Source: Peptococcaceae bacterium BICA1-7
GTDB lineage: Bacteria > Bacillota > Desulfotomaculia > Desulfotomaculales > Desulfocucumaceae
Direction: 5' to 3'
DNA length: 64,000 nt
Assembly (NCBI GenBank): GCA_000802095.1
Contig: JUEB01000026.1
Coordinates: 620,001-684,000 of the forward strand
Below the pieces are notes generated by a model. It worked only from the letters and a program-made list of their open reading frames with translations, was not told the origin of the DNA and did no database searches. Below, one piece after another: positions 27,401 to 63,919 of the stretch. Positions within the stretch are counted from its first letter, which is position 1, and each line of letters opens with the position of its first letter. Made by a program: the position numbers and the translations under genes.

Positions 27401-27511
27401 TCGGAATACAGAAGTCAGAAGTCAGAATCCAGAATAGTTTCAGCCTTTCCCTCAGCCAATGATTAAAGCTCAACCCATTCTGAATTCTGAATTCTGGGTT
27501 CTGAATTCGGA
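27401..27511. repeat. TTCTGAA-type heptamer element B1 with inverted ends
   Basis: The left arm 27401-27436 (TCGGAATACAGAAGTCAGAA and on) and right arm 27477-27511 (CATTCTGAATTCTGAATTCT and on) are heptamer arrays in opposite orientation around a 40-bp centre. It belongs to the dispersed family also seen at 40.18, 50.74, 59.08 and 63.86 kb. Confidence 0.7.
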
Positions 27512-40178: not shown

Positions 40179-40236
40179 TCTGAATTCTGAATTCTGGATT
40201 CTGTATTCCGACAGAATAAAAGTCTCAGTATAAGTT
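40179..40236. repeat. TTCTGAA-type heptamer array B2
   Basis: TCTGAATTCTGAATTCTGGA, then TTCTGTATTCCGAC, then the shared tail CAGAATAAAAGTCTCAGTAT. The tail also follows copy B5 at 63.89 kb. Confidence 0.7.
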
Positions 40237-56435: not shown

Positions 56436-57452
56436 CTACTTAACTTTTGCATTGGATATCCTGTTGGCAATTAAAAGGCTTAGAGGTATACCTATCTGTA
56501 TTGGGATGGCATAAAGAGGGTAAATTTTAAAGACAAATAAAAATTTTTCCACACTATTGTCAAGTCCTGAATTTGACAAGCCTATGATAAGTACTGATAT
56601 CGGCAGCACAATCTTTTGATAGTCCAGATTGAAGGCCTCCCCCAGCTGGCTGGACACAATATAATGAAGGACCGCCAGCTTGAAGAATGTGGTCTGCACC
56701 CAAACCACCACAGTAACAGCCTCCATCATATAGCCTGAGGGTATAGATTTAATTACCACAAAGGTGGGGGAATAGATGTTTTTAATATGCCCCGGGGGCA
56801 GCACAAGCACGATTAACAGAATAATCAAAAATATCAGGGTGCCGCCGAGCAGTACCCCGCCAACCAGGGCTTTACGCCGGTTTTGTACCATTTTCAATAT
56901 TGGCAGAAAAACCACCAGCTCAAAGAAAGGAAAAGAGATAATGGGTATTGCGTCTTTTATTATAACCCCCGGGCTGTGGTTTAAAATCGGCTGCAAATGC
57001 TGAAAATCCATTTCAGAGGCAGACATAATAATTAGTAATACACCTACAACAAAAGAAACAGTCAGGAATAATCCGGCTAAACGGAAGATAGTTTCTATTC
57101 CCAAAAAAACCGCATAGGCCGCTATAAGAACCATGACAATGTTGATTACCATTCCTGGAGTGTCGGGCAAGGCGCTTTGGGTAAGTATATCGGATATGTT
57201 GCCGGTCACCAGGGATGCCAGGTGTAATGAGTAAATGCTCAGAATGATCCTTGCCAGGGGGTGATGACCTTGCACTTTACACAGACTCAGAAAAAAAGCG
57301 TATCCCACTCCACTGGCTACTCCTATAATACCGGCCACCCACATATCCTGCTCGCTGTAACCTAAAACAGGAATTATTATAACTGAAGTTCCCAGCAAGA
57401 AAACCGCCACCGCCAGAGCAAACTCAAAAGTGCTTATTTTATAGGTATTCAT
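56436..57452 (-). CDS. GerAB/YndE-type spore germination permease, orphan
   Basis: 338 aa, ten membrane helices, APC-like fold. It starts with YKISTFEFALAVAVFLLGTS (germinant-receptor B-subunit N-terminus) and contains GYSEQDMWVAGIIGVASGVG, FPFFELVVFLPILKMV and VVVWVQTTFFKLAVLHYIVS. GerAB subunits sense amino acids and similar germinants in the spore inner membrane together with GerAA and GerAC. Neither partner is adjacent: the gene is flanked by sbcC (tail to tail, 25 bp) and, divergently, by the tryptophanase promoter. It is slightly short for the family (usual 360-370). Confidence 0.9.
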   Translation of the reverse strand: MNTYKISTFEFALAVAVFLLGTSVIIIPVLGYSEQDMWVAGIIGVASGVGYAFFLSLCKVQGHHPLARIILSIYSLHLASLVTGNISDILTQSALPDTPGMVINIVMVLIAAYAVFLGIETIFRLAGLFLTVSFVVGVLLIIMSASEMDFQHLQPILNHSPGVIIKDAIPIISFPFFELVVFLPILKMVQNRRKALVGGVLLGGTLIFLIILLIVLVLPPGHIKNIYSPTFVVIKSIPSGYMMEAVTVVVWVQTTFFKLAVLHYIVSSQLGEAFNLDYQKIVLPISVLIIGLSNSGLDNSVEKFLFVFKIYPLYAIPIQIGIPLSLLIANRISNAKVK

Positions 57453-57555: not shown

Positions 57556-57585
57556 TTGACACAGTGCCTGTCCCTACGCTATAAT
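57556..57585 (+). promoter_or_regulatory. Promoter of the tryptophanase-HutP unit
   Basis: -35 TTGACA (57556-57561) and -10 TATAAT (57580-57585), both exact consensus, 18-bp spacing. Transcription should start near 57592, about 100 nt before the tryptophanase ATG. Confidence 0.75.
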
Positions 57586-57593
57586 TGTTTTTG

Positions 57594-57660
57594 GAGCCTA
57601 TAGAAAATTAGGTATTTAGGAGGCTGCGCCATATTTTTGTGCGCGCCTCCTTTTTATTTT
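57594..57660 (+). promoter_or_regulatory. Transcription attenuator: spaced NAG triplets followed by an intrinsic terminator
   Basis: UAG triplets at 57601, 57609 and 57617 have an exact 8-nt period, with GAG at 57594 seven nt before the first. The third UAG leads directly into the stem GGAGGC-U-GCGC (57619-57629), which pairs with GCGCGCCTCC (57641-57650) and is followed by TTTTTATTTT. AGCCT at 57595-57599 can alternatively pair with AGGCT at 57621-57625, disrupting the stem. No plus-strand gene ends upstream, so this terminator can only act on the tryptophanase transcript. HutP of B. subtilis binds NAG triplets to prevent such termination. Confidence 0.7.
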
Positions 57661-57692
57661 GCCCAAAAATAATATAACAGGGGGTAGATCAA

Positions 57693-59075
57693 ATGCGGCC
57701 CAGGGATACATATGCGGAGCCCTATAAGATAAAAATGGTGGAGCCCATCCGGCTCATCAGCCCCGGGGAGAGGAAGCAGGCTATTACTGAAGCGGGCTAC
57801 AATGTTTTTAATCTTAAATCCGAGGATGTGTATATAGACCTTCTTACCGACAGCGGAACCTCGGCTATGAGCGAATACCAGTGGGCCGGTATTATGTCCG
57901 GGGATGAGTCCTATGCCGGCAGCAAAAACTTCTACCACCTGCAACAGGTAATTGAGGATATTACCGGCTGTAAATTTGTTGTTCCCACCCACCAGGGCAG
58001 GGCGGCCGAACATATACTGATGAGGGTGCTGGTAAAGCCCGGGGACCGCATCCCCGGCAATATGCACTTCGACACCACCGAGGGTCACATACGTCTAAGC
58101 GGTGCTGAGCCGGTCAACTGCCTTACCGACCAGGGCTACATCCCCGGTGAAAAACTGCCCTTTAAGGGTAATATTGACATAAATAAGCTGGAAAAAGAAT
58201 TGCTTGCCCACGGCCGAGAAAAAATACCCTTTATACTAATCACTGCCACCTGCAATAACAACGGGGGCCAGCCGGTTTCCCTGGAAAACTTTAAGGCGGT
58301 GCGCCGTCTGGCTGACAGATTCGGAGTGCCGGTTTTCCTTGACGCGGCCAGATTTGCCGAAAACGCCTATTTTATCCAGCAGAGAGAGCCAGGCTACCGG
58401 AATAAAACACTTAAGGAAATAGTCGGGGAGATGTTCTCCTGCGCCGACGGTTGCACAATGAGCGCCAAAAAGGATGCCCTGGTGAACATAGGAGGTTTTC
58501 TGGCGCTTAAGAGCGAAGAGCTATACCAGCAGGCAGTGGAGTGGCAAATTCCCTTTGAGGGCTTCCGTACATACGGCGGCCTGGCCGGCAGGGATATAGA
58601 GGCCATGGCCCGGGGGCTGGAAGAGGTTCTCGACGAACAGTATCTGGAGAACCGCATCGGCCAGGTGCAATGCCTGGGTGAAAAACTTATTGGCGCCGGT
58701 ATTCCCATTGTGCAGCCGCCGGGCGGCCACGGCATATATATTGACGCCGGGAGCCTTTTGGGACACCTTCCCCATAGCCAGTTCCCCGCCCAGGCCCTGG
58801 TTGTGGAGCTCTATCTGGAGGGAGGCATCCGCTCGGTGGAACTGGGGGCCTGCGCCTTTGGACATCGTGACGGAACCACAGGGGAAATGATTTATCCGGC
58901 GCTGGAGCTGGTGCGGCTGACTATACCCAGGCGTGTATACACTGACCGTCACATGGACTTTGTGGCCAGGGCGGCTGAGGCGGTGGCGGACAGGAAAAAC
59001 AGCATCCGGGGGCTGCAGCTTGTTTATGAGGCCCCTGTGCTGAGGCACTTTACCGCCCGCTTTGCCAGGCTGTAA
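57693..59075 (+). CDS. tnaA: Tryptophanase (beta-eliminating lyase)
   Basis: 460 aa PLP enzyme. The PLP lysine lies in CTMSAKKDALVNIGGFL (Lys260); PTHQGRAAEHIL, LDAARFAENAYFI and the C-terminal LTIPRRVYTDRHMDF are family motifs. Tryptophanase and tyrosine phenol-lyase are close. Here HFDTTEGH (Asp127), RSVELGA (no Arg where tyrosine phenol-lyase binds the phenol) and LRHFTARF (His452, as E. coli His463) favour tryptophanase. Reaction: L-tryptophan to indole, pyruvate and ammonia. ATG start with AGGGGGT upstream. Expression is probably attenuated by the leader hairpin; hutP follows. No tryptophan permease or TnaC-type leader peptide is seen. Confidence 0.9.
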   Translation: MRPRDTYAEPYKIKMVEPIRLISPGERKQAITEAGYNVFNLKSEDVYIDLLTDSGTSAMSEYQWAGIMSGDESYAGSKNFYHLQQVIEDITGCKFVVPTHQGRAAEHILMRVLVKPGDRIPGNMHFDTTEGHIRLSGAEPVNCLTDQGYIPGEKLPFKGNIDINKLEKELLAHGREKIPFILITATCNNNGGQPVSLENFKAVRRLADRFGVPVFLDAARFAENAYFIQQREPGYRNKTLKEIVGEMFSCADGCTMSAKKDALVNIGGFLALKSEELYQQAVEWQIPFEGFRTYGGLAGRDIEAMARGLEEVLDEQYLENRIGQVQCLGEKLIGAGIPIVQPPGGHGIYIDAGSLLGHLPHSQFPAQALVVELYLEGGIRSVELGACAFGHRDGTTGEMIYPALELVRLTIPRRVYTDRHMDFVARAAEAVADRKNSIRGLQLVYEAPVLRHFTARFARL

Positions 59076-59080
59076 GATGG

Positions 59081-59236
59081 CAGAATCCAGAATTCAGAAT
59101 TCAGAATTTTATGTCTGGCTCTGGGGGCAGGGCCAGGAAAAAAACCAGTTTCTGCAGTATTAGCGTACTAATCCATATTAGGAATGCTGAACCATTCTGG
59201 CTTCTGGCTTCTGGCTTCTGACTCCTGTATTCGACC
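59081..59236. repeat. TTCTGAA-type heptamer element B4 with inverted ends
   Basis: Left arm CAGAATCCAGAATTCAGAAT (from 59081) and right arm CATTCTGGCTTCTGGCTTCT (from 59193, to TATTCGACCG) in opposite orientation around an 85-bp centre. It separates tnaA from hutP. Confidence 0.7.
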
Positions 59237-59281
59237 GCATAGAATTTCAGATTAAGCGTATATAAAAGGAGACCGGCAATA

Positions 59282-59719
59282 ATGCAGACTAACCCCCTTG
59301 GCAAGATAGCCCTTAAGATGACCCTGGCTGACGACGACCAGGAAAACTCAGCCATAGCCGCCAGGGCCAGGGAGTGCGGCTACCGGGTGTGCACCGGAAA
59401 GGTGGGTTCAATGGACCTGCAGAATATAATAGGCACCATTGAAACAATGGCCCGTAAAAGCGGAGTGGTGGGCGACGGGGTGGTGGACCAGCATGCCCTT
59501 TATCACGCTGTTTACGAGTGCTGCTCCGGGTTTATGCGGGGAAACCTTATTCTGGGGGGCACCCTGCGAACTCTGGGCAGCCGCTTTGCCATCGTCCGGG
59601 GTAAGATTCCCGGAAAGGGTCAAAATGAATGGATCGCAGCTGCCATGTACGGTACTATCGGATCTCCCTCCAAGGGCTTCGAGCACGAGGCAGCGGGACT
59701 GGGTATAATCCATATATAA
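59282..59719 (+). CDS. hutP: HutP-family RNA-binding antiterminator
   Basis: 145 aa, full length and colinear with B. subtilis HutP. Shared blocks: YRVCTGKVGSMDLQNIIGTI, DQHALYHAVYECC, MRGNLILGGTLRTLGSRFAI, EWIAAAMYGTIGSPSKGFEH and GIIHI at the end. The positions known to hold the metal and L-histidine (His71, His75, Glu79, Arg86 here) are conserved. HutP hexamers bind NAG triplets in nascent mRNA and block terminator formation. ATG with AAAGGAG upstream. There are no hut genes around it; its only plausible target in view is the tnaA leader 1.7 kb upstream, in the same orientation. Confidence 0.93.
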   Translation: MQTNPLGKIALKMTLADDDQENSAIAARARECGYRVCTGKVGSMDLQNIIGTIETMARKSGVVGDGVVDQHALYHAVYECCSGFMRGNLILGGTLRTLGSRFAIVRGKIPGKGQNEWIAAAMYGTIGSPSKGFEHEAAGLGIIHI

Positions 59720-62864: not shown

Positions 62865-63395
62865 ATGCCCGACAACAGAGAGCTGATAGAAGTGCTTCGC
62901 GCAGTTATACATGAGGAAATACAATCTGTAAGGCAAGACGTCAGGGCTATTGTTCAGGAAGAATTAAGGCCGGTTAACGAACACATTGGGCATTTAGAAC
63001 AAGGACAACACCGTTTAGAGCAACGTCTGGACGGTTTAGAGCAAGGCCAGCACAGTTTAGTGCAACGTCTGGACGGCTTAGAGCAAGGCCAGTGCGGTTT
63101 AGCACAACGTCTGGACGGTTTGGAGCAAGGCCAGCACGATTTAGAGCAAGGCCAGCGCAGTTTGGAGCAAGGCCAGCACGATTTAGAACAAGGCCAGCAC
63201 CGTTTAGAACAACGTCTGGACGGTTTAGAGCAAGGCCAGCACCGTTTAGAACAAGGTCAGCGGGAAATGACTAAGGACATTAAATACCTCCAGAAAGACG
63301 TTTCCACCATTAAAAAGGAAGTCCGGGCCATCTGGGACGACATTAAAAGGCTGGACGACCGCCTTTCTGTACAGGAGAAAAAAGCTGTCCGATGA
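62865..63395 (+). CDS. Heptad-repeat coiled-coil protein with near-identical 7-residue units
   Basis: 176 aa. Residues 44-135 consist of about thirteen heptads alternating LEQGQHR/LEQGQHD and LEQRLDG, i.e. a long parallel coiled coil; the ends (LIEVLRAVIHEEIQSVRQDV and KKEVRAIWDDIKRLDDRLS) are also helical. DNA repeats of 21 and 42 bp underlie this (62995-63260), so length can change by slippage. No signal or membrane part. ATG with AAAGGAGG 9 nt upstream. Similar proteins occur in many copies in Peptococcaceae, of unknown function. Confidence 0.85.
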   Translation: MPDNRELIEVLRAVIHEEIQSVRQDVRAIVQEELRPVNEHIGHLEQGQHRLEQRLDGLEQGQHSLVQRLDGLEQGQCGLAQRLDGLEQGQHDLEQGQRSLEQGQHDLEQGQHRLEQRLDGLEQGQHRLEQGQREMTKDIKYLQKDVSTIKKEVRAIWDDIKRLDDRLSVQEKKAVR

Positions 63396-63858: not shown

Positions 63859-63919
63859 ATTCTGAATTCTGAATTCCGACTTCTGTATTCCGACCGAATG
63901 AACACCTCAGTATAAGTGA
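63859..63919. repeat. TTCTGAA-type heptamer array B5
   Basis: ATTCTGAATTCTGAATTCCG, ACTTCTGTATTCCGAC, then the tail CGAATGAACACCTCAGTATA. The tail matches the one behind B2. Confidence 0.7.

Follow-up and report, generated by a model that had tools for sequence, protein, structure and literature searches.

A putative HutP-type antitermination leader upstream of a tryptophanase gene in Peptococcaceae bacterium BICA1-7

To our knowledge, HutP has so far been known only from histidine breakdown, as a single-operon curiosity of Bacillus subtilis. The tryptophanase operon tnaCAB of Escherichia coli is regulated by attenuation, which involves a leader peptide, ribosome stalling and Rho. In the B. 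subtilis hut operon, HutP is activated by histidine and Mg2+, binds NAG repeats and prevents formation of the terminator, and the leader holds a second NAG cluster about 20 nt further on (PMC7430163). No published link between HutP and tryptophanase was found in the literature searched, which covered few HutP papers, nor was a HutP-type regulator for tnaA in Firmicutes found described in that limited literature.

The locus reported here lies in a 64-kb stretch of the Peptococcaceae bacterium BICA1-7 genome that was analysed as a whole (the window), and from its sequence the tryptophanase gene tnaA and the hutP gene downstream of it very probably constitute an operon under HutP-type transcription antitermination. 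The B. subtilis hut operon likewise has a homologous regulator, a cluster of three NAG triplets, a terminator in the leader and the regulator gene within the operon. In contrast to hut, the target is tnaA rather than hutH in a genome without hutH, hutP follows the enzyme gene, the spacers between the triplets are 5 nt instead of 4 nt, the leader has one NAG cluster instead of two, and the regulator carries three substitutions shared with a second HutP linked to tnaA. As in E. coli tnaCAB, tryptophanase would be controlled by premature termination of transcription, although the terminator here is intrinsic and no leader peptide is evident.

The tnaA leader is preceded by a sigma-A type promoter (57556-57585, + strand), in which the hexamers TTGACA (57556-57561) and TATAAT (57580-57585) match the consensus exactly and are separated by 18 nt. 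The tnaA gene (57693-59075, +) encodes a 460-aa tryptophanase, identified by its match to NF009709 and by residue alignment, and the hutP gene (59282-59719, +) encodes a 145-aa HutP-family antiterminator that matches PF09021 with an E-value of 6e-26 and the solved HutP chains with an E-value of 2e-36. The two genes are separated by an imperfect palindrome recognised by folding (59081-59225), a dispersed repeat that reads CAGAATTCAGAATTCAG ... CTTCTGGCTTCTGGCTTCTG and has partial copies elsewhere in the window at 27404-27508, 40179-40208 and 63859-63890; because this element sits between the genes, hutP is only presumably co-transcribed with tnaA. The nearest upstream gene, for a spore-germination permease, starts at 57452 and runs in the opposite direction, leaving no gene that ends into the leader terminator. 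The initial annotation had described this absence and the succession of promoter, three UAG triplets, terminator, tnaA and hutP, and both are borne out by the coordinates and the hexamers. Elsewhere in the window, an ORF at 62865-63395 (+) consists mostly of short tandem repeats (LEQGQHRLEQRLDG-like), as in a repetitive coiled-coil type protein.

The leader element itself (57592-57628, +) reads AGCCU-A-UAG-AAAAU-UAG-GUAUU-UAG-G-AGGCU in RNA, with both spacers of 5 nt and a stem of 5 bp. The three UAGs (57601-57603, 57609-57611 and 57617-57619) start at 57601, 57609 and 57617 in an exact 8-nt period, the first being preceded by a conserved A at 57600 and the third followed by a conserved G at 57620. 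They are enclosed by an antiterminator stem with the 5′ arm AGCCU at 57595-57599 and the 3′ arm AGGCU at 57621-57625, equivalent to the covarying stem of hut leaders. Most of the 3′ arm doubles as part of the 5′ arm of an intrinsic terminator (57618-57661, +), whose stem also includes the last two bases (AG) of the third UAG; the two stems are thus mutually exclusive. The terminator is built of the arms AGGAGGC (57618-57624) and GCCTCCT (57645-57651) followed by a T-rich run; its hairpin (57618-57651) has a folding energy of -21.8 kcal/mol and is followed by TTTTTATTTT. The UAGs and the terminator had already been noticed in the initial annotation, which missed the pairing of AGCCU with AGGCU. 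When the leader is folded, the terminator state reaches -27.2 kcal/mol and the enforced antiterminator -15.6 kcal/mol, which suggests that the default is off and that a protein is needed for read-through. A second NAG cluster was sought in 57620-57692 and none was found; several hut leaders of relatives also have a single cluster.

The same architecture is found in the hut leaders of relatives, which share the arrangement stem-A-NAG-N4/5-NAG-N4/5-NAG-G-stem with a stem of 5-8 bp and a 3′ arm that doubles as the 5′ arm of the terminator (L015-L019 and L140-L157, from the window's class and other Bacillota); unlike the window leader, these precede hutH, hutI or hutP. In many Bacillota the element lies between hutP and hutH or hutI, or before hutH. 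The spacers are mostly N4/N4, with N4/N5 and N5/N4 also found, and several genuine hut leaders (L104, L105, L143, L149, L150 and L151) contain one 5-nt spacer, which answers the worry raised by the 8-nt period here against 7 nt in Bacillus. The sequence AAAUUAGGUAU of the tnaA leader is identical in the hut leader L018. Among 20 distinct hut leaders, 94% of the stem cells pair versus 76% in shuffles, a figure overstated because the leaders were selected partly for having a stem, though not for standing before hut genes; changes on both sides occur in five of the six stem pairs. A covariance model made from 21 hut leaders only (R1) gives 29-38 bits for hutH leaders of genomes or loci on which it was not trained, and 28.4 and 24.5 bits for the hutP-hutH intergenic leaders of Cytobacillus firmus and Peptoclostridium acidaminophilum that were kept out of it. 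Likewise, strong matches of a later model (R2; 30 leaders, with the window leader and the second tnaA leader, L155, included) across 398 genomes of the phylum and 113 of the class fall almost only before hutH, hutI or hutP; many of its training leaders come from the scanned genomes, and the independent evidence is the position of untrained matches such as L220, L206, L202, L222, L247 and L225. An Rfam scan of the window and seven hutP loci found tRNAs only, the element being absent from Rfam.

The strong R2 exceptions stand before tnaA in the genome of L155 (G211), before a gene of the MttB methyltransferase family (L224) and, in two genomes (L201 and L223), before a gene with ferredoxin domains. 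The L224 leader (G406:C129:4186-4220; 34.3 bits) stands before a trimethylamine methyltransferase-like gene of the MttB family on a contig that also carries hutH leaders close to this gene, and the substrate of the encoded protein is perhaps a methylated histidine such as hercynine. The leaders L201 (G292) and L223 (G447:C58), of 36-38 bits, precede a gene whose 328-aa product carries 4Fe-4S ferredoxin domains at its C-terminus, possibly a second HutP target outside hut. Directly 5′ of hutP itself the element occurs at L018 6770-6804 and L019 7056-7090, which suggests autoregulation of hutP by antitermination. Tandem leaders 73 to 99 nt apart stand before a single hutH in L149 and L150, and also in L222/L202 (G406).

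In sequence, the tnaA leader exceeds chance expectation and belongs with the hut leaders, having three regularly spaced NAG triplets (N5/N5) and a terminator that overlaps the cluster and the antiterminator. The best R1 site across the 64 kb, both strands considered, is 57592-57628, with 19.3 bits and an E-value of 0.01 versus 13.7 bits for the runner-up, and the model had seen no tnaA leader in training. Most hut leaders score higher, the window site losing bits through its two 5-nt spacers and its stem of just 5 bp, and its score lies below the threshold of whole-genome scans; R1 and R2 scans of the window's genome gave nothing above threshold, the window's own site included, and are therefore uninformative on further targets. 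A strict motif, A-NAG-N4/5-NAG-N4/5-NAG-G enclosed by a stem of at least 5 bp, is found a single time in the window with both strands counted; 1.51 Mb of control DNA and 20,000 leaders of 240 nt simulated with a first-order Markov model contain none. An ordinary attenuator or leftover terminator, with UAGs present by chance and hutP as an unrelated passenger, would fit the fact that three UAGs are a short signal in an A+T-rich leader and that the antiterminator stem is just 5 bp; the position-by-position match to hut leaders, the rank of the site under R1, the empty control DNA and the second tnaA-hutP pair described below make such a coincidence very unlikely.

This second pair (L155) comes from a distant family of the same phylum, and its hutP lies about 50 nt 3′ of a tnaA whose product is 67% identical to that of the window. 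Directly upstream of tnaA stands the leader GGGCCC-A-UAG-GCAU-GAG-ACGU-UAG-G-GGGUUC with a terminator, which scores 30.4 bits with R1 (E-value 2.7e-5). A single HutP was found in this genome, and its hutH sits elsewhere, with no element in its upstream region. The initial annotation had proposed a comparison of tnaA neighbourhoods, and in that comparison the UAG/NAG cluster and terminator precede tnaA only where hutP is linked: the element is present in both tnaA-hutP pairs and absent from all of the roughly 100 tnaA loci to which no hutP is linked (Fisher p about 2e-4, assuming independence, which holds only in part). In 755 kb of tnaA loci without hutP the R1 maximum is 16.3 bits, and the strict motif is missing from 22 tnaA matches of the window's class. 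Flanks of up to 5 kb on each side of the 80 nearest tnaA loci in the species collection contained no hutP, and a search among relatives of the two genomes gave no tnaA-hutP pairs beyond these two. In L141 (G208), about 6 kb separate tnaA from a hutP-hutH pair, and the element is absent from the approximately 550 nt upstream that were examined. The proposal that HutP has been recruited to tnaA control thus finds support in two linked pairs and in the likeness to hut leaders.

The enzyme is a tryptophanase rather than a tyrosine phenol-lyase. TnaA scores 672 bits against the tryptophanase subfamily NF009709 (cut-off 285) and stays below the equivalog cut-offs of TIGR02617, NF053783 and TIGR02618. 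Where tyrosine phenol-lyase differs, in an alignment to solved tyrosine phenol-lyases and one tryptophanase, it is of the tryptophanase type (FDTT, VELG and RHFTA), with the D in FDTT, the H in RHFTA and no R in the segment corresponding to MERG. The TnaA tree places the window protein, with support, among sequences from Fermentithermobacillaceae and other clostridia and apart from those of its own class, so that its gene was likely acquired horizontally; the two hutP-linked tnaA are not grouped together. Both hutP and tnaA are missing from the two other genomes of the genus.

The window HutP shows homology along its whole length to the B. subtilis HutP of known structure (43% identity) and scores 91.6 bits against PF09021 (cut-off 25). 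Against PRK03065, the NCBIfam equivalog for the histidine utilization antiterminator, it scores 150.3 bits, just below the cut-off of 155, and is thus homologous without being filed as a hut equivalog. It keeps H73, H77 and H138, which from solved HutP structures we take to be metal-binding, as well as T99 and E137, presumably RNA contacts. The genome encodes a second PF09021 protein (L003 8099-8542, -), beside the chorismate mutase gene aroH and the trp operon, which has neither the metal-binding histidines nor the RNA-contact residues. That the UAGs are read by this HutP-fold protein or by a TRAP-like one, TRAP likewise being a binder of G/UAG repeats, is highly improbable, given the missing residues of the former and the need of TRAP for many repeats spaced 2-3 nt apart.

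With HutP as the reader of the leader, transcription would start about 8 nt past TATAAT, just 5′ of the 5′ arm of the antiterminator. Without activated HutP, the terminator at 57618-57661 would stop transcription ahead of tnaA. HutP, presumably activated by an amino acid and a divalent metal as in B. subtilis, would bind the three UAGs in the antiterminator loop, shift the balance towards the antiterminator and shield the third UAG; as this UAG and the 3′ arm reach into the terminator's 5′ arm, the terminator could not form, and RNA polymerase would continue into tnaA and hutP. We infer the binding of HutP to the leader RNA and the resulting read-through from this arrangement, and the inducing amino acid, histidine or tryptophan, is the least certain part of the model.

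The ligand may be tryptophan rather than histidine, since three substitutions common to both tnaA-linked HutPs (Y69V, A131S and the change of position 141 to A) occur in none of 27 others, namely B. subtilis HutP and proteins from loci of which nearly all are hut-linked. Position 69 is V in both versus Y in 27 of 27, position 131 is S versus A or G, and position 141 is A versus a large hydrophobic residue or C. In the sequence all three lie near the histidines that bind the metal and, we infer, they line the ligand pocket; smaller side chains at 69 and 141 would fit a bulkier ligand such as tryptophan. It is quite conceivable, if short of probable, that the tnaA-linked HutPs (Y69V, A131S and F/I/V141A near the metal site) are a subfamily switched from histidine to tryptophan, or indole, and controlling tryptophan catabolism. 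The two proteins are 43% identical to each other and are grouped in the HutP tree with support of 89/86; as both are long branches, a single origin is not claimed, and common descent would be an alternative explanation of the shared residues. A HutP of unchanged specificity, for which histidine is a signal of abundant amino acids that induces tnaA, is possible though somewhat doubtful. In an alignment both tnaA-linked proteins keep H73, H77, R88, R98, E137, H138 and E139, and the residues that we take from the B. subtilis structures to bind Mg2+ and histidine (H73, H77, E81, R88, R98, H138 and E139) are all retained; against histidine sensing stand the same three substitutions and the absence of hutH, the gene for histidine ammonia-lyase, from the window's genome (estimated 100% complete), so that histidine would not be degraded. 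The HutPs of relatives are nearly all beside hut genes; hutH is present in seven of eight class relatives with a hut-type HutP, the HutP of the eighth being close to the end of a contig with other hut genes next to it, and all three plasmid-borne HutP regions examined are hut-linked.

For the HutP family, these comparisons add a recognisable RNA element that is conserved across Bacillota and missing from Rfam, together with a putative target beyond histidine breakdown. The product of tryptophanase, indole, is a widespread signal. Having diverged in nature while sharing three changes near the metal site, the two tnaA-linked HutPs would offer a direct test of ligand switching in an amino-acid-sensing antiterminator.
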